From positions 1 to 64,000 of the forward strand of contig NZ_QBUD01000017.1 of NCBI RefSeq assembly GCF_003058085.1: a stretch of DNA of 64,000 bases, written 5' to 3'. Position 1 is the stretch's first letter. The number at the start of each line of letters is the position of its first letter. The stretch comes from Yoonia sediminilitoris. GTDB lineage: Bacteria; Pseudomonadota; Alphaproteobacteria; Rhodobacterales; Rhodobacteraceae. Under the pieces are notes generated by a model. It saw only the letters and a list, made by a program, of their open reading frames with translations. It made no database searches and had not been told where the DNA came from. Positions 41,979-60,125 of this stretch are shown in pieces. The position numbers and the translations under genes are program-made.

Positions 41979-42851
41979 CTACCTCTTCCCGTAATACAGC
42001 CCCACCACATGTTCGGCCTGTGCAAAGAACAGCCAGCGCAGGGCCAGCATGCCGGTGAGGTGGCTGAGCACGGCCAGAACGGCAAGCAGGTGACTGAACG
42101 GCAAGAGCAGCAGAATCACAGGCACGACAAAGCCAAGGCCCAACGCCAAAATCCGCAATTGTTGCGCATGTTTGCGCCCCACTTCGTGGATGAATTCACG
42201 CATCAGATAGTTGGTGCCGGTGTGCGGCGGTTCGAACGCGCGGACCTTGCCTATGTGGCCAAGGCCTGTGGCGGTTTCCATATTGGTGCCGGATGCAGCC
42301 AGCCGCGTATCGCCGCTAGTCCATGCGTAGAATTGTAAGCCGCCTGCGATGAGGAACAGAATAATGGTCAGCCATATCTGGCCTGTCATCAAGGCTCCGC
42401 CGCCGATGGACAGCGTCAGAAACAGGGCAGGGGTTGTCCAGTGTTTCCAGCGCGGCACGGTTTTCAACTGTGCATAGATCATCGCGGTCGTGAACACTGT
42501 GCCGAGTGATCCCACGGCCCCCAGAAAGCCCAACAGGCCAAGCCTCGTGCCCGCAAACACCAGCCCGGCCCCGTAGATGGCCATGATAAACAGTGTTGCG
42601 ACGGCACAAATGCCCTCACGGCTGAGCCAACTTGTTTTCCACTGACTGAAAGCCTTGACCGCCCGTTCGGGGTGCCCGAGGTGAAAGGTCGAGGCCAGCA
42701 AGCCACCAACGGCAAACAGATATGCGATGGCAAACCAGATGAAGGCCCCGAAGCCCGTGGGCACAATCGCCCCCAGACCCAGCCAGAATAACATGCCAAA
42801 ACCGATGCCGGAAAAGACAGTGAATACGATAACGGATGGTGCTGGATGCAT
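41979..42851 (-). CDS. soeC: sulfite dehydrogenase membrane anchor SoeC (DmsC family)
   Basis: A 290-residue integral membrane protein with eight or nine hydrophobic segments, of the DmsC/NrfD-like anchor group. It starts MHPAPSVIVFTVFSGIGFG, as in roseobacter homologues, and contains the GGLLASTFHLGHPERA motif. It passes electrons from the iron-sulfur subunit to the quinone pool. The start overlaps the soeB stop. The name soeC rests mainly on context: the cytoplasmic molybdenum subunit, the four-cluster SoeB and the taurine genes in the same run. DMSO reductase anchor is the alternative. Confidence 0.78.
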   Translation of the reverse strand: MHPAPSVIVFTVFSGIGFGMLFWLGLGAIVPTGFGAFIWFAIAYLFAVGGLLASTFHLGHPERAVKAFSQWKTSWLSREGICAVATLFIMAIYGAGLVFAGTRLGLLGFLGAVGSLGTVFTTAMIYAQLKTVPRWKHWTTPALFLTLSIGGGALMTGQIWLTIILFLIAGGLQFYAWTSGDTRLAASGTNMETATGLGHIGKVRAFEPPHTGTNYLMREFIHEVGRKHAQQLRILALGLGFVVPVILLLLPFSHLLAVLAVLSHLTGMLALRWLFFAQAEHVVGLYYGKR

Positions 42852-43612
42852 TATTTGGCTCCTCCGGGCAGGGCAGACAGGGCTTTGTCAAGCCACGCGG
42901 CAAAGCCTTTGCCGTCTTGGGCGATAGGTTCAAGATAGGGGGCGAGCACGTCAAATTCAGGCATCTCGTCCTTTGGGCGCGGCGGCAGGTATTTGTTGAC
43001 CGGCTTGGTGCCCTGTTCGGGCATCAGGTCAAACCCGCCGCGTTCGGCCACCAGTTTGGACACGTCGCTGTCCGCATCGCCCAGATCGCCAAAGTGGCGG
43101 GCGCCAGCGGGGCAGGTGCGTACGCAAGCAGGCTGGCGGTCTTCTTCGGGCAGGTTTTCGTTATAGATACGGTCAACGCAAAGGGTACATTTCTTCATCA
43201 CCCCTTCGGCAGCGTCCAGTTCGCGCGCACCGTATGGGCAGGCCCATGCACATAACCCGCAGCCAATGCAGTCGCTTTCATTGACCAGCACTATTCCGTC
43301 TTCGCTGCGTTTGTAGCTGGCACCGGTTGGGCAGACGGTGACACAGGGGGCATCCTCGCAATGAAGACACGACTTGGGGAAATGGATCAACTGGGCTGCA
43401 CCGGCATCCGGTTGCACTTCGTAGGAATGCACGCGGTTCAGGAAAGTCCCCGTCGGGTCGCCGCCGTAGGGGTCCTGGTCAGACAGCGGCGCGCCGTAGT
43501 TTTCGGTGTTCCAGCCCTTGCAGGAAATCACGCAGGCGTGGCACCCGACGCAGGTATCCAGATCAATGACCAGCCCTAGTTTCTTGGTGGATGGCGGTGG
43601 CAACTGGGTCAT
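42851..43612 (-). CDS. soeB: sulfite dehydrogenase iron-sulfur subunit SoeB
   Basis: A 253-residue protein with four 4Fe-4S binding motifs: CVGCHACVISC, CEDAPCVTVCPTG, CIGCGLCAWACPYG and CTLCVD with the later CVRTCPAGA. There is no Tat signal, so the subunit stays in the cytoplasm with SoeA. It relays electrons from the molybdenum subunit to SoeC. It overlaps the small upstream ORF and soeC by a few bases at each end. Confidence 0.82.
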   Translation of the reverse strand: MTQLPPPSTKKLGLVIDLDTCVGCHACVISCKGWNTENYGAPLSDQDPYGGDPTGTFLNRVHSYEVQPDAGAAQLIHFPKSCLHCEDAPCVTVCPTGASYKRSEDGIVLVNESDCIGCGLCAWACPYGARELDAAEGVMKKCTLCVDRIYNENLPEEDRQPACVRTCPAGARHFGDLGDADSDVSKLVAERGGFDLMPEQGTKPVNKYLPPRPKDEMPEFDVLAPYLEPIAQDGKGFAAWLDKALSALPGGAK

Positions 43613-43758
43613 GTGGTGGCCCTTTCGATAGGTGCTGGCGCAAGCTGGCCAATGGGTTGTTCTTTGGCGCTATCCCACGTGGCGATAAACCAGATGAAGC
43701 TGCCAAGTGTCAGGGTGATGAAGGCTGCGATCAGCATGAGAATATGCGCCTTTTTCAT
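43609..43758 (-). CDS. 49-residue single-pass membrane protein between soeA and soeB
   Basis: A short frame that overlaps both flanking genes by four bases (ATGA at each junction) and so must be coupled to them. It reads MKKAHILMLIAAFITLTLGS and then FIWFIATWDSAKE, followed by a hydrophilic tail ending PAPIERATT. The first 28 residues form one membrane helix; two lysines at the front favour an N-in orientation. The tight coupling on both sides and the sensible composition support a real gene. It could be an accessory or assembly subunit of the molybdenum enzyme, like small subunits of other oxidoreductases. No family is recognised. Confidence 0.75.
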   Translation of the reverse strand: MKKAHILMLIAAFITLTLGSFIWFIATWDSAKEQPIGQLAPAPIERATT

Positions 43759-46583
43759 TTTCTGACCTTCCACTCCAAATGGGTGGGGGCGTCAGGGACC
43801 GGCGATTTGATGGCGGGCATCGCGGGCTGGGCTTCGTTCGGGATCGCGGATTTTTCGATTTTGACCCGCAAGTCAAACCAGGCCGCCTGACCGGTTACAG
43901 GGTCAGAGTTCGCCCATCGCAGCCCGTCGCCCTTGGGCGGCATCAATTCATGGATCAGGTGATTGAGCAGGAAGCCCTTGGTCGCCTCGGGCGCGTTCTT
44001 GTCCAATGCCCATGCGCCTTTGCGTTTGCCGATGGCGTTCCATGTCCAGACCGTATTTTCGTTAAGGCTGGCCTGATGCGCGACCGGCACAACGATGGAC
44101 CCGTGGACCGACGACACCTTCGCCCAATCGCCATCTGAAAAGCCGTTCGCTTCCCAGATTTTGGTTGGCACATATAACGGGTTATGCCCGTGGATTTGCC
44201 GCAGCCATGCGTTCTGGGTGCCCCATGAATGGTACATCGCCATCGGCCGCTGTGTCAGCGCATGGATCGGGTATTCGTTCAGATCGACGGCGGTATCTTC
44301 GAATGGTTCATACCAGATCGGCAGCGGGTCCATCGTAGACATCAACCGGTCGCGCAGGTGTTCGGGGGGCTGGCGGGTGCCGATGCCTTCGGCGGCTGCC
44401 TGAAACTTGCGCAGCGGTTCGACATAAAGCTGGAAGATGTAGGGCTGGACCACATCGTAAAAGCCCATTTTGACAGCCCAATCCTGATAATCCATGCTGA
44501 ACGGTTTGTAGTAGGCGGCGTTCTCGGGGACATGCTCGATCCAGAAACCGCCGTTGTCGATATAGCTCTGCAACTGGTCGGGGTTCACGTCACCGCGCCC
44601 GCCTTGGGGGCCGTTGTCACCTTTGCGGAAACCGGCCAGCGGGCCGATGCCGGGGCGCCGGATGTGGTTGGTGATGTAGTCGGCATAGTCGGCGTATTTC
44701 TGGCTGCCATCGTCATTCACAAACCCCGGCAAGCCCAGCATGCCGCCCAGTTCACACAGCACCGACTGAAACCCGCGCACGTCGCGGTCAGGTTCCACCA
44801 CGGGCCAGCGGATCGCATCGGCAACGCCGTCAGCCTCACAAATCGGCCGGTCCAGCAGGGAGATACAATCGTGCCGTTCCAGATACGTCGTGTCGGGCAG
44901 GATCAGGTCAGCATAGGCGACCATTTCAGACGAATAGGCATCGGAATAGATGATATGCGGGATCACATAGTCGCCATTTTCATCCTTGTCGGTAAGCATC
45001 TTGTGGACGCCACCGACGTTCATCGATGAATTCCACGACATGTTCGCCATATACATGAACAGCGTGTCGATTTTGTAGGGCACACCGGCATGGGCGTTGG
45101 AAATGACCATATGCATCAACCCGTGGGCCGACATCGGGTTTTCCCATGAATAGGCCTTGTCGATGCGGGTCGGATTGCCGTCATCATCCAGCAGCAGGTC
45201 TTCGGGGCCGTGGGTATAGCCAAGGTGTGGCCCATCGAGTGCGGCACCCGGCGTAACCTTGCCGTGCGGCTTGGGGTGGGCGGTCGCGGGTTTGGGGTAG
45301 GGCGGTTTGAACCGCATCCCGCCGGGGGTTTCCACAGACCCAAGCAGGATTTGCAGCACATGCAGCGCGCGGCATGTCTGGAATCCGTTGGAATGTGCTG
45401 AAATCCCCCGCATCGCGTGAAAACTGACCGGGCGTCCGACCATTTTGGCGTGCTTCTTGCCCCGGAAGTCGGTCCATTCACGATCAAGCTCAATCGCTTC
45501 GTCAAAGGCCACGCGAGCCAGATCGGCAGCAATAGCGCGGATGCGTTCGGCGGAGATGCCGCATTTTTCGGCCACTGCCTCTGGCGCGTAGTCGTCCTGC
45601 AGATAGCGGTCAGCCATCAGGTGGAACACGGGCCGATGCGTGACGCCCTTGTCGCGGTAGGTGGCGGACAAGTCAGGCTCGACCCCTTGACCGTTCCATG
45701 GGGCCAGCTTGCCGGTGTTGCGGTCAATCACCTGCGGCTGGCCGTCGCTGTCGCGCAAAAACAGGCCAAACTGGTCGCTGTCGGCGTCTTCGTTCACCAG
45801 AACAGAGGCATTGGTGAAACGCGCCAGATAGTCCAGATCAACCTTGCCCGCCTTCATCAGGCAGTGGACAATCGCAAGGATAAACAGACCGTCTGTGCCG
45901 GGCGTGATGCCGACCCAATCGTCGGCGACGGCGTTGTAGCCTGTGCGGATAGGGTTTACCCCGATCATCCGCGCGCCGCGCTTCTTGAGCTTGCCAATGC
46001 CCATCTTGATCGGGTTGCTGTCGTGGTCCTCGGCCACGCCGAACAGCATGAACAGCTTGGTGTTGTCCCAATCGGGCTGTCCGAATTCCCAGAACGCCCC
46101 GCCCATCGTATAGATGCCCGCTGCTGCCATGTTCACCGAACAGAACCCGCCGTGCGCGGCATAATTCGGGGTGCCGAATCCTTGCGCCCAGAAGCTGGTG
46201 AAAGATTGTGACTGGTCTCGGCCTGTAAAGAACGCCAGCTTTTCGGGGTGCTTTTCACGCACGGGTTTGAGCCATTCAACGGCCTTTTTCAGGGCCGCGT
46301 CCCAACTGATTTCGACGAATTCACCCGAACCACGCTCGCCCACCCGCATCAGGGGCGCGCGCAGACGGGACGGCGCGTTATGCTGCATGATCCCGGCGGA
46401 GCCTTTGGCGCACAATACGCCCTGGTTCACCGGATGGTCTTTGTTGCCTTCGATATAGGCGACCTTGCCGTCCTTCATATGCACGTTGATGCCACAGCGG
46501 CAGGCACACATGTAGCAAGTGGTTTTGCGCACCTCGTCCGAAACCTTGGGGGATGTATCAATGTTTGGCTGATCTAGTGACAT
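43755..46583 (-). CDS. soeA: sulfite dehydrogenase molybdopterin subunit SoeA
   Basis: A 942-residue molybdopterin oxidoreductase of the DMSO reductase superfamily. The N-terminal 4Fe-4S motif is CYMCACRCGINVHMKDG with a later GVLCAKG, followed by domains binding bis-MGD (FFTGRDQSQSFTSFWAQGFG, GVNPIRTGYNA) and a C-terminal dinucleotide-binding domain (HALTQRPMAMYHSWGTQNAW). There is no twin-arginine signal, unlike periplasmic DmsA or thiosulfate and arsenite enzymes. This agrees with the cytoplasm-facing SoeABC sulfite dehydrogenase. The same run encodes Xsc, which releases sulfite, so sulfite is the favoured substrate. A 103-base gap to the TSUP gene is the largest in the run. Confidence 0.8.
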   Translation of the reverse strand: MSLDQPNIDTSPKVSDEVRKTTCYMCACRCGINVHMKDGKVAYIEGNKDHPVNQGVLCAKGSAGIMQHNAPSRLRAPLMRVGERGSGEFVEISWDAALKKAVEWLKPVREKHPEKLAFFTGRDQSQSFTSFWAQGFGTPNYAAHGGFCSVNMAAAGIYTMGGAFWEFGQPDWDNTKLFMLFGVAEDHDSNPIKMGIGKLKKRGARMIGVNPIRTGYNAVADDWVGITPGTDGLFILAIVHCLMKAGKVDLDYLARFTNASVLVNEDADSDQFGLFLRDSDGQPQVIDRNTGKLAPWNGQGVEPDLSATYRDKGVTHRPVFHLMADRYLQDDYAPEAVAEKCGISAERIRAIAADLARVAFDEAIELDREWTDFRGKKHAKMVGRPVSFHAMRGISAHSNGFQTCRALHVLQILLGSVETPGGMRFKPPYPKPATAHPKPHGKVTPGAALDGPHLGYTHGPEDLLLDDDGNPTRIDKAYSWENPMSAHGLMHMVISNAHAGVPYKIDTLFMYMANMSWNSSMNVGGVHKMLTDKDENGDYVIPHIIYSDAYSSEMVAYADLILPDTTYLERHDCISLLDRPICEADGVADAIRWPVVEPDRDVRGFQSVLCELGGMLGLPGFVNDDGSQKYADYADYITNHIRRPGIGPLAGFRKGDNGPQGGRGDVNPDQLQSYIDNGGFWIEHVPENAAYYKPFSMDYQDWAVKMGFYDVVQPYIFQLYVEPLRKFQAAAEGIGTRQPPEHLRDRLMSTMDPLPIWYEPFEDTAVDLNEYPIHALTQRPMAMYHSWGTQNAWLRQIHGHNPLYVPTKIWEANGFSDGDWAKVSSVHGSIVVPVAHQASLNENTVWTWNAIGKRKGAWALDKNAPEATKGFLLNHLIHELMPPKGDGLRWANSDPVTGQAAWFDLRVKIEKSAIPNEAQPAMPAIKSPVPDAPTHLEWKVRK

Positions 46584-46686: not shown

Positions 46687-47445
46687 TCATGACAGTTGCG
46701 TCCTGACAAGCCCCGATACCGCCAGCCCGCTTAGCAGCAGCAGGCAGAAGGGACGGTAGAAAGGGGCAAATCGCGGGATGAACAGCTTTTGTCCGGCAAA
46801 CACCCCCGCACAGGCAAAGGCAGATAAGGCAAGGCCGCGCGTTGCGGCCTGCGCATTCATGACGCCCGTAGCCAAATAGGTGATAATGGTGGTGAACAGG
46901 CTGATGAATAGAAACAGCACAAGGGCGGCCCGCATCTTGGCGGCAGGCGCGTCTTGCGACAGCACATAAAGGGCGACGACCATGCCGCCGACTGACGCAA
47001 GCCCGGTGACAATGCCTGCGACAAAACCGGCTGCATAGACGCCAGCTTTGGTGGCGAGGAACGCGATCCTGATCCGGGCCAGTTGGGTGAGTGCCAAGAT
47101 GATGATGACCGTCAGGACAACAGCCTTTGACGCCTCTACCGACAGTGCCTGCACCGCCAGCACCCCAAACGGCACGCCAAGCGTGGACCCGATGACCAGG
47201 CCCATGACGATGCGGCGGTCAGCCTCTTGCCAGCCGCCCCGCGCCATGAGGACAGACGCGGCCATTTCCAGACACCAGCAGATCGGGATCAACTCGATTG
47301 GCGGCAGGATCAGCACGCCAGAGGCCATGACCAGCGCGGACAGGGCAAAGCCGGAAAAACCGCGCACGACCCCGGCGATCGTGACGATCAAGGCGAGGGC
47401 TGCGAACTCCGGCGCTGTCAGATTGATGAGTGTCAGCGCGTCCAT
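46687..47445 (-). CDS. tauE: TSUP-family sulfite exporter (TauE/SafE type)
   Basis: A 252-residue inner-membrane protein with about eight hydrophobic segments and the paired TSUP repeats: VVRGFSGFALSALVMASGVL in the first half and FVAGIVTGLASVGGMVVALY in the second. Family members export sulfite, sulfoacetate or related anions. Its ATG shares bases with the ackA stop (TAATG). Placed between ackA and soeA, it probably relieves sulfite stress from Xsc. A second TSUP gene lies in the same run. Confidence 0.85.
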   Translation of the reverse strand: MDALTLINLTAPEFAALALIVTIAGVVRGFSGFALSALVMASGVLILPPIELIPICWCLEMAASVLMARGGWQEADRRIVMGLVIGSTLGVPFGVLAVQALSVEASKAVVLTVIIILALTQLARIRIAFLATKAGVYAAGFVAGIVTGLASVGGMVVALYVLSQDAPAAKMRAALVLFLFISLFTTIITYLATGVMNAQAATRGLALSAFACAGVFAGQKLFIPRFAPFYRPFCLLLLSGLAVSGLVRTQLS

Positions 47446-48509
47446 TACTGCCCCTTGGCTATCAGGGTCAGCGCATCGCGGGCGATTTGCTTTTCTTCGT
47501 CGGCGGTGACGATATGCACGGGTACATCACCAAAGCAGGCCAGCAGTTCCATGATCCGGTCGCGCACGGGGGTTGCGTTTTCGCCGATGCCGCCGGTAAA
47601 GGCGACGGCATCCAACCCGCCCATTGCAACCAGCGCAGACCCTGCGTGCCGGGCCGCCCAATAGCAGAAATGCTCGACCGCGAATTTCGCGTCAGGATCA
47701 TCGCGCGCCAACAGCGTTTTCATGTTGTTGTCGCCTGCTAGCGCCTTGAGCCCCGAGGCGTTGTTGAGCAGCCGGTCTGTTTCGTCTTCGCCAAAGGCTT
47801 TGGACATGCGCAGGACTGCTGCACCGTCGATATCGCCTGACCGCGTGCCCATTGTCAGGCCGGACAGAGGCGAGTAACCCATTGATGTCGCATAGGACTT
47901 CCCGTCCAGAATGGCACAAAGGCTGGCCCCATTACCCAAATGAAAAGCCAGCAGGCGATGCGGCAGGTCAGCGCCGAACTCTGCCACCATATTGGCGTAT
48001 GAAAGTCCGTGAAACCCGTAGCGGCGAATACCTGCATCATGTTGGGTTTTGGGGATGGCATAGCGGATGGCGACTTCGGGATTGGCGGCATGGAACGCCG
48101 TCCCGAAGCTGCAGTATTGCGGCAGGTCGGGGGCCGCGTGTTGCAGGGCATAGATGCCCGCCAGATTGTTGGGATTATGGAGGGGTGCCAGCGGCACCAC
48201 GCTTTCAATGGTCTTGATGACGGATGTCGTCAGGCGCGCCGGTTGCGTCAAGATTGTCCCGCCATGCACGACGCGGTGTGCTGCGGCATCCAGTGCGCTG
48301 ATCGGATGCCCGGCCTTGTCCAGCGCGCCCAGCATCGCGGCAAGTGCCGCCGCATGATCGACAGCCGTGACCTCTTGCCGGGCATCGCCCAGCTTCAATT
48401 CACCCTGTGTGCCGATATTGGTCACGGCCCCGCTCACCACTGACGTCAGCCCATGATCGAAAAGCTCGATCTTGAGGGATGAAGAACCGGCGTTGAGGAC
48501 AAGGATCAT
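47445..48509 (-). CDS. ackA: acetate kinase
   Basis: A 354-residue ASKHA-fold kinase. ILVLNAGSSSLKIELF holds the first phosphate motif, and GFHGLSYANMVAE and MGTRSGDID the active-site histidine and arginine region. FTGGIGENATPVRD is the adenine-binding motif. It is shorter than the usual 400 residues but all motifs are present. Acetyl phosphate from Xsc can be turned to acetate with formation of ATP, which adds an energy-yielding branch beside Pta. It overlaps the TSUP gene and starts 10 bases after pta. Confidence 0.9.
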   Translation of the reverse strand: MILVLNAGSSSLKIELFDHGLTSVVSGAVTNIGTQGELKLGDARQEVTAVDHAAALAAMLGALDKAGHPISALDAAAHRVVHGGTILTQPARLTTSVIKTIESVVPLAPLHNPNNLAGIYALQHAAPDLPQYCSFGTAFHAANPEVAIRYAIPKTQHDAGIRRYGFHGLSYANMVAEFGADLPHRLLAFHLGNGASLCAILDGKSYATSMGYSPLSGLTMGTRSGDIDGAAVLRMSKAFGEDETDRLLNNASGLKALAGDNNMKTLLARDDPDAKFAVEHFCYWAARHAGSALVAMGGLDAVAFTGGIGENATPVRDRIMELLACFGDVPVHIVTADEEKQIARDALTLIAKGQ

Positions 48510-48519: not shown

Positions 48520-49455
48520 CTATTTCGGCAGTGCGCATTTGATCGACGCGAGTGCGGCAGATGCAAGCCGCGCGGCGGGCGGATCTGCGCGTGAGGTCAG
48601 CAGGATAGGTACCTTTGCCCCCGTCACCACGCCAGCCGCACAACCGCCGCCGATGTAGACAAAGGCTTTGAACAGGGCGTTGCCCGACACAATGTCGGGC
48701 ACGATGATCGCATCTGCCTGACCTGCGACCGGATTGTCGGTCAGCCCCTTTGTGGCGACGGCATCGGGCGACAGGATCAGGTCAAGCGCCAAAGGGCCGG
48801 ACACATCGGCGTTGCTGATGTGCGTTGCGGCCCAATCAGCCAGCGCCTTGCCATCCATGGAACTGGGGACCGACGGAATGGCACTTTCGGTCGCGGAGAG
48901 AATGGCGATTTTGGGACGGTCATTGCCCAAGCGGTGCAGCAGGTCATTCACCTGCGCGATGCAGGTCTGGCGGGTTTCCAGATCGGGGGCCACGTTGACC
49001 GCAGCGTCGGAAATCAAAATCGGTTTGCCCCCATCAGGATGGGTGATGTGGAAAATGTGCACAAAGCGCGCCCCCGTGCGCAGCCCCGCATCGCGGCTGA
49101 CAGCAGATTTCATAAAGACATCCGTGTGCAGGTTGCCTTTCATCAGCACGTCGGCTTCGCCCGCTCCGCAAAGGGCGGCGGCGGTCTGGCCCGCCTCGGC
49201 CTCGCCATTGGTGTCGTGGATGGCGTAGCCGGAAATGTCCCATTCCAGCTTTGCTGCCTCGGCCCGGATTTCATCAGCCTCACCCACAAAAACCGGGATC
49301 ATGATGCCCGCTTTGGTCGCGTCCTCTGCCGCTTCCATCGGCAAGGGCGCACCAGCGCGGGCAATCGCGACCCGTGGTGGTGCGAACTTCTGCGCGCGTG
49401 CGATCAGCTCTTGCGGTGCAACAGCTTCGCGTTTGGACAGGAACGGTGATGACAT
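48520..49455 (-). CDS. pta: phosphate acetyltransferase
   Basis: A 311-residue single-domain PTA/PTB protein, the short type typical of xsc operons. ILSATESAIPSVPSSMDGKA and RTGARFVHIFHITHPDGGKP are characteristic, and QADAIIVPDIVSGNALFKAF contains the CoA/phosphate site. It converts acetyl phosphate released by Xsc to acetyl-CoA. One base separates it from the upstream TSUP gene, and 10 bases from ackA. Confidence 0.88.
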   Translation of the reverse strand: MSSPFLSKREAVAPQELIARAQKFAPPRVAIARAGAPLPMEAAEDATKAGIMIPVFVGEADEIRAEAAKLEWDISGYAIHDTNGEAEAGQTAAALCGAGEADVLMKGNLHTDVFMKSAVSRDAGLRTGARFVHIFHITHPDGGKPILISDAAVNVAPDLETRQTCIAQVNDLLHRLGNDRPKIAILSATESAIPSVPSSMDGKALADWAATHISNADVSGPLALDLILSPDAVATKGLTDNPVAGQADAIIVPDIVSGNALFKAFVYIGGGCAAGVVTGAKVPILLTSRADPPAARLASAALASIKCALPK

Positions 49456-49456
49456 A

Positions 49457-50203
49457 TCAAACCTCAGTAATCGCGCGCAAAAGGCCCAGCAGAGCCAGCG
49501 CTAGAAGGAGCATAACCGCAAAGCGGCGAAAGGTCGTTGGGGACGCGGCAAGAAACTGACGCCCGCCCAGCCAGACCCCCAATCCGAGCAGCGGAAAGGC
49601 CAGACCCAGCCCGGCGGCTGTGTCCCACGTTATCAATCCGCCCGCCCACAGCAAGGGCATGGTGATAAGATCCAGACCGGTCAGAAAGACGATCATCGTG
49701 GCGCGAAACCGCTGGGGTGCCATGGGTTGCGCGGTCATGAAAGCAGCCACCGGCAGCCCCCCGATGCCTGCGCCGTTGCATAGACCCGACAAGATGCCCA
49801 CACCGAAATGCCCCGGCGCGCCAATCGTGCGTCGCAATGTCCAGCCTGACAGCAACACCAGCGACATGGCAAGAACGATCAGCGAAACGGTCAGTCTGAC
49901 CGCGCTTTCGCCCAGCGAAAGGATGGTCCAGACTGACAGGGGCAGCATCACGGCAGCCCCGGCGAGAAGTGCAAAAACACGACGCCAGTCCACATGGCCG
50001 CGAATGCCGCGTGCCTGAAAGACTGTCATCAAGATCTCGCATGAAAACACCACCGGAATGAGGGGTAGGGGGTTTGTTATCAACGCCGCGAAGGCAATGA
50101 AAATAGCCGAAAACCCAAACCCCGAATAGCCCCGGACAAAGGCGGCGCCCAACAATGCAACTGCAAGGGCGACCGCCTGTCCGGGGCCTAGATCGAATGG
50201 CAA
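49457..50203 (-). CDS. second TSUP-family transporter (TauZ-like)
   Basis: A 248-residue membrane protein with two TSUP repeats: ALLGAAFVRGYSGFGFSAIF in the first half and GILSGLCNGAGIGGLPVAAF in the second. It begins with MPFDLGPGQAVALAVALLG. It starts two bases after xsc ends. The fold is that of TauE/SafE. The role (sulfite, sulfoacetate or acetate export) is not resolved; the name TauZ has been used for the xsc-linked TSUP gene. Both TSUP proteins differ clearly from each other. Confidence 0.8.
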   Translation of the reverse strand: MPFDLGPGQAVALAVALLGAAFVRGYSGFGFSAIFIAFAALITNPLPLIPVVFSCEILMTVFQARGIRGHVDWRRVFALLAGAAVMLPLSVWTILSLGESAVRLTVSLIVLAMSLVLLSGWTLRRTIGAPGHFGVGILSGLCNGAGIGGLPVAAFMTAQPMAPQRFRATMIVFLTGLDLITMPLLWAGGLITWDTAAGLGLAFPLLGLGVWLGGRQFLAASPTTFRRFAVMLLLALALLGLLRAITEV

Positions 50204-50205: not shown

Positions 50206-51978
50206 CTATTCGGCAGCCATGTCGGAAGCAGAGATACCCGCAACTTCAACAGGTTTCTTCATGGCGTCACGGCGGAACGGTTCACCCAGTTCCTGATTGA
50301 GGATGACCTCGATCAGGGTCGTGGTGTTGTTTTCCATCTGATCCTTGATCGCTTCGTTGAGGGCTGCGGTCAGTTCGTCCATCGTGCGCGCCTGCACACC
50401 CTTCAGACCACAGGCGTTGGCGATCCCGGCATATGACACTTTCATGTCCAGTTCGGTGCCGACGAAGTTGTCATTGAACCACAGGGTAGAGTTGCGCTTT
50501 TCAGCACCCCACTGGTAGTTGCGGAAGACGATCTGCGTGATGGCAGGCCATTCGTCGCGGCCAATCGCGGTCAGTTCGTTGACCGAAATCCCAAAGGCGC
50601 CGTCGCCTGCGAAACCGATGACAGGCACATCGCGCTGGCCAATCTTGGCACCGATGATGGATGGCAGGCCATAACCACAAGGTCCAAACAGACCCGGTGC
50701 CAGATATTTGCGCCCTGTGGGGAAGCTGGGGTAGGCGTTGCCAATCGCGCAGTTGTTGCCGATGTCGGACGAGATGATCGCATCCTCTGGCATTGCGGAC
50801 TGGATCGCGCGCCATGCCATGCGTGGCGACATCCAGTCAGGACGGGCTGCGCGTGCGCGTTCGTTCCATGTGGTGCCCGGATCATCCTCTTCGTGGTCAA
50901 GCGATGTCAGTTCCTGCGCCCATGCCGATTTGGTCTGTGCGATTAGCGCCTTGCGGTCTGCACGGCCTGCGTCACCGGCACCATCGGCCAGTTGCTCTGT
51001 GATGCTGGTGGCCACTTTGGCGGCGTCGCCGACGATACCCACGGTGATCTTCTTGGTCAGGCCGATGCGGTCGGGGTTGATGTCTACCTGAATGATCTTG
51101 GCGTCCTTGGGCCAGTAGTCAATGCCGTAGCCGGGCAGGGTCGAGAAGGGGTTCAAGCGTGTGCCCAATGCCAGAACGACATCAGCCTTGCTGATCAGCT
51201 CCATGCCAGCCTTGGACCCGTTGTAGCCCAACGGCCCTGCAAACAGCGGGTGGTTGCCGGGGAAGGCGTCATTGTGCTGGTAGCCCACGCAAACAGGCGC
51301 ATCCAGCTTTTCAGCCAACAGGCGCGAGGCTTCGATGCCACCTTCGGCCAGAACAACGCCAGCACCGTTCAGGATGACAGGGAACTTCGCTGTGGACAGC
51401 ATTTCAGCCGCCTTTGAGATTGAAGTCGCGCCACCGGGGCTGACTTCGAATTCAATTGGTTCAGGCAGTTCGATATCGATGACCTGGGTCCAGAAATCAC
51501 GTGGAATGTTGATTTGGGCGGGGCCGGACAAACGCTTGGCCTTTGCAATCACGCGGGCCAGCACTTCGCAGATGCGGGACGGGTCGCGGACTTCTTCCTG
51601 ATAAGCCACGCAGTCGGCGAACAGGTTCATCTGTTCCATTTCCTGAAAACCGCCCTGACCGATGGTCTTGTTTGCTGCCTGTGGTGTGACCAGCAGGCAG
51701 GGGGTGTGGTTCCAGTAGGCGGTTTTGACAGATGTCACAAAGTTCGTGATGCCCGGGCCGTTCTGGGCGATCATCATCGACATTTCGCCTGTGACGCGGG
51801 TGTACCCATCCGCCATCATGCCAGCGGTCATTTCGTGGGCGCAATCCCAGAATGTGATGCCCGCCTTGGGGAAAATATCAGAGATCGGCATCATGGCAGA
51901 GCCGATGATCCCGAACGCATGGCGGATACCATGCGCTTGCAGTGTTTTGACGAAAGCCTCTTCAGTGGTCATCTTCAT
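50206..51978 (-). CDS. xsc: sulfoacetaldehyde acetyltransferase
   Basis: A 590-residue thiamine-diphosphate enzyme of the Xsc family, cleaving sulfoacetaldehyde with phosphate to acetyl phosphate and sulfite. The N-terminal HGIRHAFGIIGSAMMPISDI and MIAQNGPGITNFVTSVKTAY mark the pyrimidine-binding domain. The ThDP motif begins VPVIGFAGDGAFGISVNELT, and NYQWGAEKRNSTLWFNDNFV is typical of Xsc rather than acetolactate synthase. It is first in the leftward run to soeC. A TauR-like repeat pair lies about 90-125 bases upstream. Confidence 0.96.
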   Translation of the reverse strand: MKMTTEEAFVKTLQAHGIRHAFGIIGSAMMPISDIFPKAGITFWDCAHEMTAGMMADGYTRVTGEMSMMIAQNGPGITNFVTSVKTAYWNHTPCLLVTPQAANKTIGQGGFQEMEQMNLFADCVAYQEEVRDPSRICEVLARVIAKAKRLSGPAQINIPRDFWTQVIDIELPEPIEFEVSPGGATSISKAAEMLSTAKFPVILNGAGVVLAEGGIEASRLLAEKLDAPVCVGYQHNDAFPGNHPLFAGPLGYNGSKAGMELISKADVVLALGTRLNPFSTLPGYGIDYWPKDAKIIQVDINPDRIGLTKKITVGIVGDAAKVATSITEQLADGAGDAGRADRKALIAQTKSAWAQELTSLDHEEDDPGTTWNERARAARPDWMSPRMAWRAIQSAMPEDAIISSDIGNNCAIGNAYPSFPTGRKYLAPGLFGPCGYGLPSIIGAKIGQRDVPVIGFAGDGAFGISVNELTAIGRDEWPAITQIVFRNYQWGAEKRNSTLWFNDNFVGTELDMKVSYAGIANACGLKGVQARTMDELTAALNEAIKDQMENNTTTLIEVILNQELGEPFRRDAMKKPVEVAGISASDMAAE

Positions 51979-52070: not shown

Positions 52071-52103
52071 TTAGGTCCAGTTGACGCGGTGTATTAAGGC
52101 CAG
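52071..52103 (-). promoter_or_regulatory. candidate TauR operator upstream of xsc
   Basis: On the minus strand CTGGCCTTAA (52103-52094) and CTGGACCTAA (52080-52071) are direct repeats 23 bases apart, about 93 bases before the xsc ATG. The second copy fits the CTGGACYTAA consensus I recall for TauR of Rhodobacter capsulatus. MocR-type regulators typically bind such direct repeats. Confidence 0.7.
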
Positions 52104-52201: not shown

Positions 52202-53701
52202 TCATGCTGATGCAGAGGCGATATGAGGCCTTCCGTTTTTTTGGTAGGAGCGGATCGCCCTTGCAACCAAATCGACACCTTCTGCAATGCGACCGGATGA
52301 GATCGATGAATAGGCCAGTCGAAAATAGGCGCTGTGGCCCTGCGGATTCGCAAAAAAGGGCGCACCTGCTTCGATCAGGACGCCATCCGCCCGCAGCGTT
52401 TCGGCCAATTGAGTTGCATCAATCCCATCCGGCGCGCGCAGCCATACCGATGAACCGCCGTAAGCGCCTTCTCCGGCAACGGTCAGTTGGTTCTTCTCCA
52501 GTGCGGCATCCATGACTTTGCGCCTTTCGTGATAGGCTTTGCTCATCCGGCGGACCAGCGCATCATAATGTCCCAAAGAGAGGTAATAGCTGACCGTGCG
52601 TTGGATGTGGCCCGGCGGATGGCGCAGCACCGACGCGCGTAGCGCGCGGGCTTCGCGGATGAACGGCTCTGGCCCCACAAGATAGCCAAGGCGCAAACCG
52701 GGAAACAGCGATTTCGAAAACGAGCCCACATAGATCACGCGCCCGTTCTGATCGAGCGACTTCAAGGAAGGGGACGGTGATTTGAGAAATGACATTTCAA
52801 ATTCATAGTCGTCCTCGACGATCAGGAAATCATCCGCATCCGCCCGTTCAAGCAAGGCGCGGCGCCGGTGCAACGGCATGGTCGCTGTTGTGGGGCATTG
52901 ATGGCTAGGCGTTGTAAACACAACATCTGTTTCATGGGGGAGCGCGTCAGGAGGCAGCCCATCGGAATCAACGCTGATGTTATGCAACTGGCAACGCGAT
53001 TGTGTAAGGATATTGCGCAGCGCCGGATAGCAAGGGTCTTCGATCGCCGCATGTCGGCGGCTGTTCAGCAAAACCTGCGCGGATAGCCAAAGCGCGTTTT
53101 GCGCCCCCATCGTCACCAGAATTTCATCCGTATTGGCCAGAATGCCGCGGCGTGGCAATGTTTGCCGGGCGATGAATTCGATCAGTTGAGGATCGTCGCC
53201 ATCGTACAGATCGGACGTCATCGCCGCAAAGTCGCGCATCCCAAGCGCTTGCAACGCACACAGCCGCCAGTTTGCGCTGTCAAAAAGGGTCTTGTCGGCC
53301 TGCCCGTAAATGAACGGGTAACGATAACTCGCCCAATCGGACGGCTTTTTCAGGCTCAGTCCCGGACTGTGCCTTTGCGCGATCGCGCGGTTCCAATCCA
53401 CCGTGCCCGCCCCAAATCGCCGGGCGGGAAAGGCAGGTGGTTCGGGTGCGTTGTCAGATACGAAGTACCCAGACCGCCCGCGCGAGACCAGATAATCATC
53501 GGCTACAAGTTCGGTATAGGCCAGCGTGACCGTGATCCTGCTGACCCCCAGATGCACCGCCATTTTTCGCGAGGATGGCAAGCGTTCACCACGCCGAAAC
53601 CGGCCTTCGAGAATTCCTTGGGCCACCATCTGTTGAATCCGCGATTGCAGCGTCCCTTCTGCGTTCGGATCAAGAAAGAAAGTCTCGATATTGATGGACA
53701 T
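52202..53701 (-). CDS. tauR: taurine-responsive MocR/GntR-type regulator TauR
   Basis: A 499-residue MocR-type protein. The N-terminal GntR winged helix (residues about 15-85, GRFRRGERLPSSRKMAVHLG) is joined to a class I aminotransferase-like domain with the PLP lysine in YVGSFSKSLFPGLRLGYLVG. No enzyme partner domain is missing. Position between xsc and the tpa/tauABC genes, and repeats upstream of all of them, support the name TauR. It is separated from xsc by 223 bases that hold the xsc operator, so it is probably transcribed independently. Confidence 0.88.
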   Translation of the reverse strand: MSINIETFFLDPNAEGTLQSRIQQMVAQGILEGRFRRGERLPSSRKMAVHLGVSRITVTLAYTELVADDYLVSRGRSGYFVSDNAPEPPAFPARRFGAGTVDWNRAIAQRHSPGLSLKKPSDWASYRYPFIYGQADKTLFDSANWRLCALQALGMRDFAAMTSDLYDGDDPQLIEFIARQTLPRRGILANTDEILVTMGAQNALWLSAQVLLNSRRHAAIEDPCYPALRNILTQSRCQLHNISVDSDGLPPDALPHETDVVFTTPSHQCPTTATMPLHRRRALLERADADDFLIVEDDYEFEMSFLKSPSPSLKSLDQNGRVIYVGSFSKSLFPGLRLGYLVGPEPFIREARALRASVLRHPPGHIQRTVSYYLSLGHYDALVRRMSKAYHERRKVMDAALEKNQLTVAGEGAYGGSSVWLRAPDGIDATQLAETLRADGVLIEAGAPFFANPQGHSAYFRLAYSSISSGRIAEGVDLVARAIRSYQKNGRPHIASASA

Positions 53702-53717
53702 GGCTTGCTTTCGCTGA

Positions 53718-53750
53718 ACTGGCCTTATTGCCTGCGTAGACTGGCCTTAA
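53718..53750. promoter_or_regulatory. candidate TauR operator upstream of tauR
   Basis: ACTGGCCTTA occurs twice on the plus strand, at 53718-53727 and 53740-53749, start to start 22 bases. The pair begins 17 bases before the tauR start (53701), suggesting autoregulation. The repeat orientation points away from tauR, towards the hypothetical gene at 53877. Confidence 0.65.
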
Positions 53751-54656: not shown

Positions 54657-54680
54657 CCACAACATATAAACGTTGCATGA

Positions 54681-54956: not shown

Positions 54957-55151
54957 ATGAACTTGTTTCATCTCGTCATTGTGCTTGCCATGGGTGCAGC
55001 CAGTCTTGCCACTTTCGCAACATCCCAGACACTCCATGTTTGCGTTTTTGCGCTACCATCCGAGCAAGTGGCAGGTGATCTGATTGTCCCGGAACGGGTG
55101 TTGGCCGAGGAAGACCCCGGCCAATCATGTGTTAGCCCAAGACCCGTGTGA
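54957..55151 (+). CDS. small exported or membrane protein
   Basis: A 64-residue product. AAGGGG lies six bases before the ATG. MNLFHLVIVLAMGAASLATF is a clear hydrophobic N-terminus, either a signal peptide or one membrane helix. The rest has two cysteines and an acidic region. The stop overlaps the end of the convergent tpa gene by about 20 bases. The family is not recognised; the good Shine-Dalgarno makes it more than a chance frame. Confidence 0.5.
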   Translation: MNLFHLVIVLAMGAASLATFATSQTLHVCVFALPSEQVAGDLIVPERVLAEEDPGQSCVSPRPV

Positions 55152-56514
55152 TCGCTTGATCAACGGCGTCGGTGATCTGGTCCAGATCATCCTTTGTCGC
55201 GATCAGGGGCGGGGCAAATAGCAGCGTGTTGTTGTATCCGGGCAATGACCGGTTTGTTGCCCCGATGATGATCCCCTGTTGCATACAGTCCGCAACAATG
55301 GCTGCAACCTGCTTTTCATTCACGGGGTCTTTGCTATCGCGATCTGTCACCAGTTCCGCACCAGCGAACAGGCCCATGCCACGCACATCACCAATCCAGC
55401 GGTGCTTTTCCATCAGCCCCAGCAAGTTGTTTTGCAGGTGCTCTCCCATGCGGGTGGAATTGCCGCGCAGGTCTTCTTCTTCTATAATCTTCATGTTTTC
55501 GATGGCTGCGGCGGGCCCTGCCGTGCAGCCGCCAAACGTCGATATATCGCGGAAATATGACAGGTGGTCGGTGTCGTCCTTGAACATCTCGAAAACAGCG
55601 TTTGTCGTCACGCAGCACGAAATCGCAGCGTAGCCGGAAGCGACGCCCTTGGCCATTGTCACGATATCAGGCTGCACGCCGAACTGCTGATAGCCGAACC
55701 ATGTCCCTGTGCGGCCCAGACCGCAGACGACCTCGTCAATATGCAAAAGGATGTCGTATTTCTTGCAAATCTCCTGCACGCGGTCCCAGTACCCCTTTGG
55801 CGGCACAATGATGCCGCCACCGGCGGTGATGGGCTCAAGACACAATGCGCCGATCGTATCGGGTCCTTCGGCAAGGATCACATCCTCAATCGCTTGCGCG
55901 GCCTTTGCGCCATATTCTTCGCCAACCGACCCGTCTTGCGACCGGTATTCGAGGCAGTGCGGGACCCGCACAAAACCGGGCGTAAACGGTCCATATTGTG
56001 CGTTGCGCTCATCCTGACCGCCAGCCGAGAGCGCAGAAATGGTCGTGCCGTGATAGTCGCGTTCACGATAAAGGATCTTGTTCTTTTTGCCGCCATAATG
56101 CTTGTGGCTGATCTGGCGGACCATCTTGAAGGCCTTTTCGTTCGCCTCTGATCCGGAGTTGGCGTAATAGACCCGGTCCAGACCCGGCATCTTGTCGATC
56201 AGCATTTCAGAAAATTGCGCCCCGGGGATTGTGCCAAGGGTGCCGCCGAAGAAACACATCTTGGTCAGTTGCGCGCCGACTGCATTGGCGATGCGTTCGC
56301 GACCATAGCCCACGTTCACCGTCCATACGCCGCCTGACACAGCGTCGAGATGTTCCTTGCCCTTGATGTCCCAAACGCGCATGCCCTTGCCTTCGACGAT
56401 GATGCGTGGGTCAATTGTTTCGTAGGGTTTGTGCTGGCTCAGATGGTGCCAGACATGGGCGCGGTCCGCTTCCACGATCTGGTCTGGGTCATTTGCAAAG
56501 GCATGGGTGTCCAT
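55132..56514 (-). CDS. tpa: taurine-pyruvate aminotransferase
   Basis: A 460-residue class III PLP aminotransferase. DILLHIDEVVCGLGRTGTWF holds the PLP-binding aspartate and IVTMAKGVASGYAAIS the Schiff-base lysine. YYANSGSEANEKAFKM binds the cofactor phosphate. Tpa converts taurine and pyruvate to sulfoacetaldehyde and alanine, giving the substrate for Xsc. It is divergent from tauA and has its own TauR-like repeat. A related aminotransferase with another amine substrate cannot be excluded by sequence alone, but the neighbourhood makes taurine very likely. Confidence 0.92.
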   Translation of the reverse strand: MDTHAFANDPDQIVEADRAHVWHHLSQHKPYETIDPRIIVEGKGMRVWDIKGKEHLDAVSGGVWTVNVGYGRERIANAVGAQLTKMCFFGGTLGTIPGAQFSEMLIDKMPGLDRVYYANSGSEANEKAFKMVRQISHKHYGGKKNKILYRERDYHGTTISALSAGGQDERNAQYGPFTPGFVRVPHCLEYRSQDGSVGEEYGAKAAQAIEDVILAEGPDTIGALCLEPITAGGGIIVPPKGYWDRVQEICKKYDILLHIDEVVCGLGRTGTWFGYQQFGVQPDIVTMAKGVASGYAAISCCVTTNAVFEMFKDDTDHLSYFRDISTFGGCTAGPAAAIENMKIIEEEDLRGNSTRMGEHLQNNLLGLMEKHRWIGDVRGMGLFAGAELVTDRDSKDPVNEKQVAAIVADCMQQGIIIGATNRSLPGYNNTLLFAPPLIATKDDLDQITDAVDQAITRVLG

Positions 56515-56811: not shown

Positions 56812-56952
56812 TGCTCCGCCCGGCAGGCGTTTGACCGAACGCCGGGCTGTAGTGGTGATAATATATTGCGGCTGGGCAACGGTAAAAAACCATGTTCATC
56901 TGCAGTATCGCGGCAGGGGCGACCTTGCTTACGACAACATGGGAGAACAAAA

Positions 56953-57951
56953 ATGAAGATCAAAACAACGCTGATGGGGGCTGTTGCCGGTGCTGCAATG
57001 CTGACAGGCATGCAAGCGACTGCGGACGGGCACGGCGAAATTACAGCTGCTTATTTCCTTGAGTGGCCAATGCCGTTTCTGGCGGCCAAAGCATCGGGCG
57101 CCTATGATGAGGCACTGGGCATGAAGGTGAACTGGGTGTCTTTTGAGACAGGCACCGCGATGTCAGCTGCAATGGCGTCCGGCGACGTGCAGATTGCCGT
57201 GAGCCAGGGTGTGCCGCCATTTGTTGTCGCGGCCTCCGGCGGGCAGGATTTGCAGGTTGTTGATGTTGCCGTCAGCTATTCCGACAATGACAACTGCGTC
57301 GTAGCGGCGGGGCTGGAAATCGACAAAGACAGCGCCGGTGAGTTGGCGGGCAAGAAAGTTGCCGTGCCGTTGGGAACCGCTGCGCACTACGGCTTTCTGC
57401 GCCAGATGGACCACTTCGGTGTGCCGCTTGATTCCCTGCAAATCGTTGACATGGACCCGCCAACAGGTGCGTCAGCACTGGCACAGGGCGATGTGGACTT
57501 TGCATGTGGCTACGGTGGTGGCCTGACATCCATGAAGGAGTATGGCAACGTCCTGCTCACAGGTGATGAAAAGGAAGAACTCGGCATTCTGGTGTTTGAC
57601 GTGACATCTGCACCTGCATCCTATGTTGCCGAAAATGGTGATGTCGTCGCAAAGTTCCTGGCGGTGACTGCAGCGGCCAACGCGGAATGGAACGCGGGTC
57701 AGCCTGACGAGATGCTGGCCGTGATTGCGGAACAGTCCGGCATGGATGTTGACGCCGCCAAAGCGTCAATCTCGACGATGAAGTTCCCGGATGTCGAAAC
57801 GCAGCTTTCCGACGCGTGGCTGGGGTCAAATGCAGCAACCTTTATGAAGGGTGTGGCGGACGTGTTCGTTGAAGCGGGCTCAATTGATAGCGCACTTGAA
57901 AGCTATGAGGACGCTGTGAACACCGGACCTCTTACGCAGGCCGCAAACTAA
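56953..57951 (+). CDS. tauA: taurine ABC transporter substrate-binding protein
   Basis: A 332-residue periplasmic binding protein. The ATG at 56953 has GGGAGA upstream, and the product starts with a signal peptide (TLMGAVAGAAMLTGMQATAD). ITAAYFLEWPMPFLAAKASG opens the mature protein, a pattern shared with TauA/SsuA. FETGTAMSAAMASGDVQIAV forms a ligand loop. It is first of tauABC; a stem-loop separates it from tauB. Confidence 0.93.
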   Translation: MKIKTTLMGAVAGAAMLTGMQATADGHGEITAAYFLEWPMPFLAAKASGAYDEALGMKVNWVSFETGTAMSAAMASGDVQIAVSQGVPPFVVAASGGQDLQVVDVAVSYSDNDNCVVAAGLEIDKDSAGELAGKKVAVPLGTAAHYGFLRQMDHFGVPLDSLQIVDMDPPTGASALAQGDVDFACGYGGGLTSMKEYGNVLLTGDEKEELGILVFDVTSAPASYVAENGDVVAKFLAVTAAANAEWNAGQPDEMLAVIAEQSGMDVDAAKASISTMKFPDVETQLSDAWLGSNAATFMKGVADVFVEAGSIDSALESYEDAVNTGPLTQAAN

Positions 57952-57958
57952 GACACCT

Positions 57959-57986
57959 GGGTTGGCGTGCCGGTGCGCGCCAACCC
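57959..57986 (+). terminator. stem-loop between tauA and tauB
   Basis: GGGTTGGCG and CGCCAACCC form a 9-bp stem with a 10-base loop just after the tauA stop, without a T run. It probably sets the excess of binding protein over transporter by partial termination or mRNA protection. Confidence 0.65.
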
Positions 57987-58053
57987 TTGCCTTTGGTTTT
58001 TCCTGAAAAGACCCGCGCGCAGGCCTTTTCAAGAGAAACAAGAGGGACAGAGG

Positions 58054-58860
58054 ATGTCGGGACTTCAAATAGACAAACTTTCCATGCGGTTCGACTTGCC
58101 AAATGGATCGTCGGTACAGGCGCTTCAGGACGTCACTCTCAATCTGCAAGCAGGAGAGTTGCTGTCGGTGCTGGGGCCGTCCGGCTGTGGCAAGACCACG
58201 CTGCTCAATATCGTGGCAGGGTTTCTGGCACCCACCGATGGACAAATCATCCTCAATGGCCATCAGGTCACCGGGCCCGACGCCGAACGTGGCATGGTGT
58301 TCCAGCAGGGTGCACTGTTTGAATGGATGAGCGTGCGCGAAAACGTCGGGTTCGGCCCCTCCATGAAAGGGATGGCAAAGGCGGAAAAGCACAAGATTGT
58401 CGATCATCTGCTTGATGTCGTGGGCTTGCAGGATTTCAAGGAAAAGGCCGTTTATGAACTGTCGGGCGGGATGCAGCAGCGCGTGGCACTGGCCCGTTGT
58501 CTGGCCAATGACCCCGATGTCATCTTGATGGATGAACCGCTGGGCGCGCTGGATGCGCTGACCCGCGAAAAGATGCAGGGGCTGGTTCTGAAACTCTGGA
58601 AAGAGACGGGCAAGACGATCATTCTGATTACCCACTCCGTCGAAGAGGCGTTGCTGCTGGGTGAGCGACTGATCGTTATGGCCCCGCGTCCGGGTCGCAT
58701 CCACAAGGAATACCGTCTGCCATTTGCGGAAATGGGTGTTGATCAGGACCTGCGCGAGGTCAAGAAGCATCCTGATTTCGGTCAAACCCGAGAGGAAATC
58801 CTCAGCATGATCTGGGACATGGAAGAAGAAATCATGGGCCGTTCGGAGGATGCAGCATGA
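58054..58860 (+). CDS. tauB: taurine ABC transporter ATP-binding protein
   Basis: A 268-residue ATPase. Walker A GPSGCGKTT, Q-loop MVFQQGALFEW, signature LSGGMQQRV and Walker B VILMDEPLGALD are all present. The AGAGGGACAGAGG before 58054 selects this ATG rather than upstream frames. It overlaps the tauC start by four bases. Confidence 0.93.
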   Translation: MSGLQIDKLSMRFDLPNGSSVQALQDVTLNLQAGELLSVLGPSGCGKTTLLNIVAGFLAPTDGQIILNGHQVTGPDAERGMVFQQGALFEWMSVRENVGFGPSMKGMAKAEKHKIVDHLLDVVGLQDFKEKAVYELSGGMQQRVALARCLANDPDVILMDEPLGALDALTREKMQGLVLKLWKETGKTIILITHSVEEALLLGERLIVMAPRPGRIHKEYRLPFAEMGVDQDLREVKKHPDFGQTREEILSMIWDMEEEIMGRSEDAA

Positions 58861-60125
58861 TCCCCCTTCTGATTTATGTAGCGATCTTCATTCTGGCCTA
58901 TGTGCTGGTCACCAAAGTGGTCCACCGCGCCGTTGCAAAGGACTACACATCGCTCAAGACCGTGACGTTCGGTGATGAAAGTGCTGTGCGGCCCAACCGG
59001 GTGGCCGGGGTCATCTCGGTCTTTTCGATTTTTGTCTTGTGGGGCATGTTTACGGGGTCCAGTCTGCTGCCCGGTTTTCTGCATGCACCGGCCCCGTTCG
59101 AGGGCACATCAACCTTTGACTACACCGCAGAAGTCGATGGGCAAGGCACGGATGATGCCACCGTGACCGTCGTCGTGCATCCGCGCGAAGTGCCGACGGA
59201 TGCGCCCGAAGTGGAACCGGGCGATGGTTTTGCCAAGAATGATTCAGCGACCGTTGCACAATGGCGCACAGGCCTGATCAATGTTGCCGCGAACGATGAT
59301 TTGACCAAGAGCGATGGCGCGCGGGTCATTGCGATCAACGGACAGCCCATCGCGCCCGGTGAAACAGTCAAGGTTGAGGGCGGCAGTGTGACCCTGTCTG
59401 ACAAGGGCACGCCAAACTTTGCCCCGTCGCGCGGCTGGCAGATGGAGCCACTCTACCTACCGGCGCCGGAGGCCGTGTGGGACCGAACGATAAAGATAAC
59501 CCAGGAAGGTTTCCGTAACTTCAGCCTATGGCAGCATTTGGGCTATTCGCTCTTCCGCGTCATTGCCGGTTTCCTCCTGGGGGCACTGGTTGGCATCCCG
59601 CTGGGCTACGCCATGGGGCTGAGCAACTGGTTTCGGGGCTGGTTCGACCCGATTGTCGAATTCATGCGCCCGGTGCCGCCTTTGGCCCTGATCCCGCTGG
59701 TGATCATCTGGGCCGGTATCGGTGAGGCAGGCAAGATCATCCTGCTGTTTCTTGCAGCCTTGTGGATCATGGCAATTGCGGCCCGTTCGGGCGTCTCTGG
59801 CGTGCGGATTTCCAAGGTCCATGCAGCCTATTCGCTGGGTGCATCCAAATGGCAGATCATGCGCCATGTGATTATCCCCAATTCCCTGCCTGAGATATTT
59901 ACCGGTGCGCGGGTCGCAATGGGGGTATGCTGGGGTACGGTGGTTGCTGCCGAACTTGTCGCCGCCGAACAGGGCGCTGGCATGATGATCATGACTGCAT
60001 CGAAGTTTCAGAACACCGATATCGTGATCATGGGCATTATCCTGATCGGTGTGATCGGCTTTGGCATCGACATGCTGATGCGCTGGGCCGAGCGGGTGCT
60101 GGTGCCTTGGAAGGGTAAGGGCTGA
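58857..60125 (+). CDS. tauC: taurine ABC transporter permease with extra N-terminal region
   Basis: A 422-residue permease; E. coli TauC has 275. The last 240 residues are an ordinary TauC/SsuC-type permease (RPVPPLALIPLVIIWAGIGE and HAAYSLGASKWQIMRHVIIP-like VHAAYSLGASKWQIMRHVII). The first 150 residues add a membrane segment at residues 2-22, a second near 45-70, and a soluble part (about 75-195) with a charged, beta-rich composition (YTAEVDGQGTDDATVTVVVH). This part should be periplasmic. The overlap with tauB and the terminator after it close the operon. Confidence 0.9.
   Translation: MIPLLIYVAIFILAYVLVTKVVHRAVAKDYTSLKTVTFGDESAVRPNRVAGVISVFSIFVLWGMFTGSSLLPGFLHAPAPFEGTSTFDYTAEVDGQGTDDATVTVVVHPREVPTDAPEVEPGDGFAKNDSATVAQWRTGLINVAANDDLTKSDGARVIAINGQPIAPGETVKVEGGSVTLSDKGTPNFAPSRGWQMEPLYLPAPEAVWDRTIKITQEGFRNFSLWQHLGYSLFRVIAGFLLGALVGIPLGYAMGLSNWFRGWFDPIVEFMRPVPPLALIPLVIIWAGIGEAGKIILLFLAALWIMAIAARSGVSGVRISKVHAAYSLGASKWQIMRHVIIPNSLPEIFTGARVAMGVCWGTVVAAELVAAEQGAGMMIMTASKFQNTDIVIMGIILIGVIGFGIDMLMRWAERVLVPWKGKG

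Follow-up and report, generated by a model that had tools for sequence, protein, structure and literature searches.

A locus on contig 17 of the 4.67-Mb genome of Yoonia sediminilitoris, within the 64,000-nucleotide stretch analysed here (hereafter, the window), probably encodes TauR-controlled dissimilation of taurine to sulfate by the sulfite dehydrogenase SoeABC with an accessory small protein. We give this reading, as a whole, a probability of about 0.82. TauABC is predicted to import taurine and Tpa to transfer its amino group to pyruvate, after which Xsc would cleave sulfoacetaldehyde to acetyl phosphate and sulfite. Pta may convert the acetyl phosphate to acetyl-CoA, a cytoplasmic, quinone-linked SoeABC would act at the membrane to oxidise sulfite to sulfate, and putative exporters of sulfite and/or sulfate are encoded by two TSUP genes. 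A 49-residue protein encoded between soeA and soeB may be an accessory single-helix component of SoeABC, with soeA, the small open reading frame (ORF), soeB and soeC presumably forming a chain of coupled translation, and the locus is likely under TauR control. Protein families and the literature are the basis for predicting each reaction, which way electrons flow and what the exporters carry. Taurine is a marine source of carbon, nitrogen and sulfur, and roseobacters are able to give this sulfur back as sulfate.

Evidence for a route from taurine to sulfate

Gene content, order, conservation and overlaps, TauR-type boxes and the coding character of the small ORF were observed directly. A first-pass annotation of this DNA had proposed the route taurine, sulfoacetaldehyde, sulfite, sulfate, and this part of its interpretation is supported by an Xsc match above the cut-off, the features of SoeA, SoeB and SoeC, and the TauR-type boxes; of two further parts, the linkage between SoeABC and Xsc as the notable point is not supported, and energy recovery by AckA is doubtful (see below).

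SoeA scored far under the cut-off of every NCBIfam model that it hit (best, PhsA thiosulfate reductase, 192 bits; DmsA/YnfE model, 124.6), and the nearest solved chain in the PDB set was 2vpw, a thiosulfate/polysulfide reductase. It has no RR motif in its first 45 residues and no hydropathy segment, as expected of a cytoplasmic protein without a twin-arginine translocation signal. Cys23, Cys26, Cys30 and Cys58 form the N-terminal [4Fe-4S] set, and Cys148 aligns with a Cys of 2vpw that we take to be the Mo ligand. A loose, unanchored version of the Cys pattern was found in 130/130 homologues and the strict cluster pattern in 108/130. SoeB has exactly 16 Cys, fitting four [4Fe-4S] clusters, and a Fer4_11 match, while SoeC has seven hydropathy segments and a PF04976 match above the cut-off, as in polytopic DmsC/NrfD-like proteins, with no NCBIfam match. 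The molybdoenzyme is thus probably SoeABC, an assignment that rests on these features and on synteny. A review describes SoeA as cytoplasmic and Cys-ligated, within a bSreA/SoeA lineage, in its excerpted text (PMC10100899).

The published TauR consensus, CTGGACYTAA in direct repeats (excerpts of PMC5320631), is matched exactly by one box upstream of xsc and with one mismatch by a second, and this 23-bp pair recurs in relatives. The relatives were searched with CTGGMCYTAA, allowing one mismatch, a pattern widened after the second box had been seen and used identically for the control. In 59/64 loci the 250 bp ahead of xsc held at least one box, against 3% of random windows; 27/64 loci, against 0.5% of random windows, held a pair with a spacing of 18–26 bp. 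The search of the whole window was not significant alone (5 matches, 2.6 expected), and the weight of the boxes comes from their position and conservation upstream of xsc.

Gene order was compared in two samples. The first comprised the best 80 of at least 594 SoeA matches in named species genomes, and it favours close relatives because only the best matches were kept; the closest by SoeA were Yoonia and Loktanella (84–91% identity). Among the 72 usable loci (at least 6 kb upstream of soeA, or xsc visible), xsc lay upstream of soeA on the same strand in 66 and tauR in 55; the six without upstream xsc were L018, L040, L041, L043, L054 and L067. Given its conservation among the 80 loci, the arrangement is not due to chance. 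The second sample comprised 292 Rhodobacterales genomes, the window's own included, with SoeA in 222 and Xsc in 197. Where both genes were among the 150 matches listed for each, they lay within 10 kb of each other in 79/97 genomes; contig breaks perhaps explain some of the other 18. Outside the order, all 20 stretches L120–L139 (12–19 kb; only 0.8 kb upstream of soeA in L123) carried soeA, soeB and soeC, and none held an Xsc match above 26% identity. The union of soe genes with xsc thus looks like a trait of the order. The first-pass annotation had singled out this linkage as notable and called for a comparison across Rhodobacterales; it proved to be the rule there, hence not distinctive, and is already in print for Ruegeria pomeroyi.

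A different role for the soe-like genes has been proposed. The excerpts of PMC5320631 suggest that bisC, dmsC and hybA, which from their family names we infer to be soeA, soeC and soeB, serve TauXY rather than sulfite. In keeping with this, another xsc lies elsewhere in the genome (C2:145247-146980), with 75% identity to the first. In the stretch 8203-11403 of L089 (G000:C2:137000-156000) it adjoins an FAD (flavin adenine dinucleotide) amine-oxidase-type gene, which resembles the COG665 oxidoreductase listed in those excerpts. The FAD gene sits on another contig, however, no TauXY-like gene was found among the scanned genes of the locus, which has an aminotransferase instead, and SPO3557-3559 of R. 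pomeroyi were annotated as SoeABC already in 2014 (excerpts of PMC4334477). We thus consider a TauXY role highly improbable and retain sulfite as the predicted substrate. With two xsc genes, the genome is probably able to form sulfite from sulfoacetaldehyde at two sites. A MocR regulator near the second xsc (L089 12077-13564) also passes the NCBIfam PdxR cut-off, and histidine-utilisation genes lie on the other side of that xsc.

Several observations weigh against the overall reading of the locus as a TauR-controlled route with an accessory small protein. The small ORF is absent from 43/80 soe loci, from 177/222 SoeA-bearing genomes and, within the same genus, from G084; since most soe loci lack it, SoeABC must work without the small protein elsewhere. 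Its C-terminal tail is unconstrained, with the nonsynonymous rate (dN) below the synonymous rate (dS) in only 36/141 unsaturated pairs. Tpa, Pta and AckA all score under their nearest NCBIfam cut-offs (Tpa, PRK07678, 461 against 488; its gene is kept beside tauR-xsc in relatives), and AckA is without its metal-binding Asp. In NCBIfam the regulator scores above the threshold of the PdxR model (NF052282, 344.5 against 320) and not of a TauR model, so that its name rests on position and the boxes.

The junction of soeA and soeB

The small ORF is apparently an undescribed membrane-protein gene, and the least ordinary part of the locus. It shares four bases with soeA, on whose stop it begins, and four with soeB, on whose start it ends. 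Its product has a single hydrophobic stretch (2.29 over 19 residues) and the core GSFIWFIATWD. A like ORF was found in 37/80 loci; 31 of these overlap the soeA stop by four bases (ATGA, some GTGA), and at the other end 35/37 share four bases with the start of soeB. A Gly, a Phe and a Trp of the core are invariant in 38/38 sequences, and a further ORF, in L092, has Thr for the core Gly (TSF instead of GSF). Codon-position entropies were 0.87/0.67/1.35, and dN was below dS in 278/284 unsaturated pairs across the core (median ratio 0.45). The core is under purifying selection.

A profile built from 20 members matched 45/292 Rhodobacterales genomes at E 2e-12 or better, three weak matches (E 0.001–0.008) being left out of this count; one carrier, G237, has a stop within the matched stretch. 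The ORF adjoins soeA in all 41 of the 45 carriers with a SoeA position among the matches listed, and no membrane ORF lies between soeA and soeB in any of 31 non-Rhodobacterales loci (L108–L118, L120–L139). On a SoeA tree (FastTree, 130 rows) its presence changed 15 times, 13 of the changes being forced by supported branches, a count that is slightly off as row L092 was labelled absent though the ORF is present. Repeated loss or transfer is likely. Known small-protein families were considered and rejected: the best matches, each to one of 20 members, were at E 0.0029 in Pfam and E 0.0091 in NCBIfam, the best in the PDB was at E 0.55, and these weak matches were mostly to unrelated proteins. Neither a soeD nor a fourth small SoeABC protein was found in the open-licence literature, though one may be described elsewhere, and the excerpted SoeABC and SoeA text of review PMC10100899 mentions no small protein.

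Across the 80 loci, the soeA-soeB junction is filled by direct overlap (10), by the membrane ORF (37, of which 31 span it under a loose criterion), by a short non-membrane frame that spans it (23), by a longer gene (7) or otherwise (3). A frame runs exactly from the soeA stop to the soeB start in 19 of the 24 short-gap loci that lack the membrane ORF, where dinucleotide shuffles gave 11.0 (same lengths) or 4.0 (length free), although these loci are related and hence not independent trials. The peptide sequences of the bridging frames are unconserved. In its simplest reading, this pattern reflects selection for coupled translation of SoeA and SoeB. The membrane protein would then be one of several fillings of the junction, which in relatives is closed by direct overlap, the small protein, another gene or a relay frame. 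The small ORF itself might then be nothing but a translational bridge with an incidental peptide, as the exact but unconserved open frames and the direct overlaps would allow. We regard this as rather unlikely, since the conserved core, the codon-position entropies and the excess of core pairs with dN below dS argue for a functional protein, as does the unfailing adjacency to soeA in genomes with both positions listed. In the relay frames, translational coupling would be maintained although the peptide is not conserved, which can be tested.

RNA structure was considered as a general cause of the gap and rejected: the median z was −0.56 where the gap was short and the membrane ORF missing (24 loci), −0.10 where that ORF was present (19/37 folded), and z was 0.35 in the window, with no general signal. 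Strong palindromes occur at single gaps (L063, z −5.3; L038, z −3.7), and palindromes or repeat-like hairpins were seen within still-open bridging frames in L033, L038, L052, L063, L082 and others. The gap holds a frame of about 280–335 residues, alpha/beta hydrolase-like by eye, in L041, L043, L048, L065, L068, L072 and L075, and in L011 a transporter gene that by eye is LysE-like precedes the small ORF.

We put the odds that the small protein is part of SoeABC at about even. It could instead be a peptide that acts in sulfite stress or membrane integrity, or it could assist assembly without remaining in the complex; the patchy distribution over 15 tree changes would suit such an optional helper, as would the unconserved tail, while the adjacency to soeA and the coupling to soeB speak against it, and we hold this to be improbable. 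A bolder reading, which we hold at somewhat less than even odds, is that of an undescribed fourth SoeABC component in some Rhodobacterales, at a junction selected for unbroken translation and variously filled. A small gene coupled to both soeA and soeB would give a direct handle on the assembly or anchoring of the sulfite dehydrogenase.

Acetyl phosphate and the layout of the locus

The window's AckA, the sole PF00871 match in the genome, has FGTAFH in place of FDTAFH, with Gly at the position of Asp148. We take Asp148 of M. thermophila to be equivalent to Asp150 of S. typhimurium, which fits the spacing from the conserved His. Asp150 is the metal-binding Asp of S. typhimurium AckA in the excerpts of PMC3475010. 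Gly occupies this position in the window and 14 relatives (L009–L013, L015, L017, L019, L032, L034, L047, L057, L062 and L083) and Asp in 23, with one unread. Because Gly replaces the metal-binding Asp of characterised acetate kinases, the energy recovery by AckA that the first-pass annotation had envisaged is doubtful, and acetyl phosphate more probably goes through Pta.

A Pta-type gene and ackA occur together in the window and in at least 19/66 xsc-linked relatives, a count that omits other Pta types; Pta is at least 60% identical to the window's in 14 of these 19 and 42–47% identical in five. Of the 14 loci that have both an ackA and a Pta of the window's type, 13 showed the AckA Gly, against 0/20 other readable loci; this association was not significant once the AckA tree was considered (2 changes, 2 independent pairs, p 0.5). 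About two origins of the Gly, both with the window's Pta type, are suggestive only.

The genes listed by the first-pass annotation were each confirmed in place by ORFs and family matches (Table 1). Its spacing of 0–10 bases, except one of 103, agrees with the measured junctions, which from soeC to xsc are −1, −4, −4, 103, −1, 10, 1 and 2 bases, four of them overlaps. Upstream of xsc by 223 bp and on the same strand lies tauR, and tauABC points rightward, spanning about 56953–60125. The 1430 bp between tauR and tpa (53702-55131) hold two scanned ORFs without a Pfam match, and a search for an RNA gene there gave nothing at Rfam gathering thresholds; this gap is 0.25–0.6 kb in L009, L010, L011 and L013 and longer elsewhere, e.g., in L012. 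Further genes in the window encode a heavy-metal P-type ATPase (60288-62519), a cyclic-nucleotide-binding, Crp-like regulator (41284-41820) and the signal recognition particle RNA (4832-4929).

Table 1 Features of the putative taurine dissimilation locus, in window coordinates.
Feature	Position	Strand	Basis
soeC, probable sulfite dehydrogenase membrane-anchor subunit	41979..42851	-	PF04976 DmsC, 34.2 bits (cut-off 22.3)
soeB, probable iron-sulfur subunit	42851..43612	-	Fer4_11 and related Pfam matches; 16 Cys
Small ORF, 49 residues, predicted single-helix membrane protein	43609..43758	-	Own profile, conservation
soeA, probable molybdopterin catalytic subunit, cytoplasmic	43755..46583	-	PF00384 and PF04879
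TSUP family exporter gene 2	46687..47445	-	PF01925, 63.3 bits (cut-off 32.6)
ackA, acetate kinase homologue	47445..48509	-	PF00871, 280.6 bits; TIGR00016, 275 (cut-off 293.4)
pta, PTA/PTB-type phosphotransacylase	48520..49455	-	PF01515, 97.1 bits; best NCBIfam PRK08190, 274.9 (cut-off 282)
TSUP family exporter gene 1, TTG start	49457..50203	-	PF01925, 60.8 bits (cut-off 32.6)
xsc, sulfoacetaldehyde acetyltransferase	50206..51978	-	TIGR03457, 913.9 bits (equivalog cut-off 676.4)
TauR-type box CTGGACCTAA upstream of xsc	52071..52080	-	Exact match to consensus CTGGACYTAA
TauR-type box CTGGCCTTAA, direct repeat 23 bp from CTGGACCTAA	52094..52103	-	One mismatch to consensus
tauR, MocR/GntR-family regulator	52202..53701	-	PF00392 and PF00155
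TauR-type box pair CTGGCCTTAT, CTGGCCTTAA upstream of tauR, 22 bp apart	53719..53750	+	Points away from tauR
tpa, class III aminotransferase, probable taurine:pyruvate aminotransferase	55132..56514	-	PF00202, 297.2 bits; synteny
tauA, periplasmic substrate-binding protein	56866..57951	+	PF09084, 51.1 bits; true start probably 56953
tauB, ABC ATPase	57967..58860	+	PF00005, 122.9 bits; true start probably further in
tauC, ABC permease	58857..60125	+	PF00528, 100.8 bits

Comparison with known systems

In the excerpts of PMC4334477 and PMC9870897, SPO3557-3562 of R. pomeroyi DSS-3 are annotated as soeC, soeB, soeA, pta, xsc and tauR. By these locus tags, soe, pta, xsc and tauR follow the same order as in the window, whereas tpa and tauABC lie apart (SPO0673-0676). 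Since this operon was already known, the gene linkage itself adds little. Ruegeria sp. L082, whose SoeA is 78% identical to that of the window, differs in its Pta type, in having no membrane ORF between soeA and soeB, and in a 343-residue polytopic membrane protein (8945-9976) encoded ahead of soeA; by eye the latter is of YeiH type, perhaps TauZ.

The SoeABC of Allochromatium vinosum was reportedly described by Dahl et al. in 2013, and we know of no fourth small gene with it. By its description in the excerpts of PMC10100899, it is like the window's predicted enzyme a cytoplasmic, Cys-ligated molybdoenzyme.

The TauR regulon of Rhodobacterales, as given in the excerpts of PMC5320631, comprises tauABC, tpa, xsc, pta, ackA and tauE, with bisC, dmsC and hybA in some genomes, and the window shares this gene set under CTGGACYTAA-like direct repeats. 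The same excerpts state that Pta and AckA never occur together in one TauR regulon, unlike the window and its at least 19 xsc-linked relatives with both genes. Our data thus bear on two statements of that 2016 paper, the assignment of the soe-like genes to TauXY and the mutual exclusivity of Pta and AckA.

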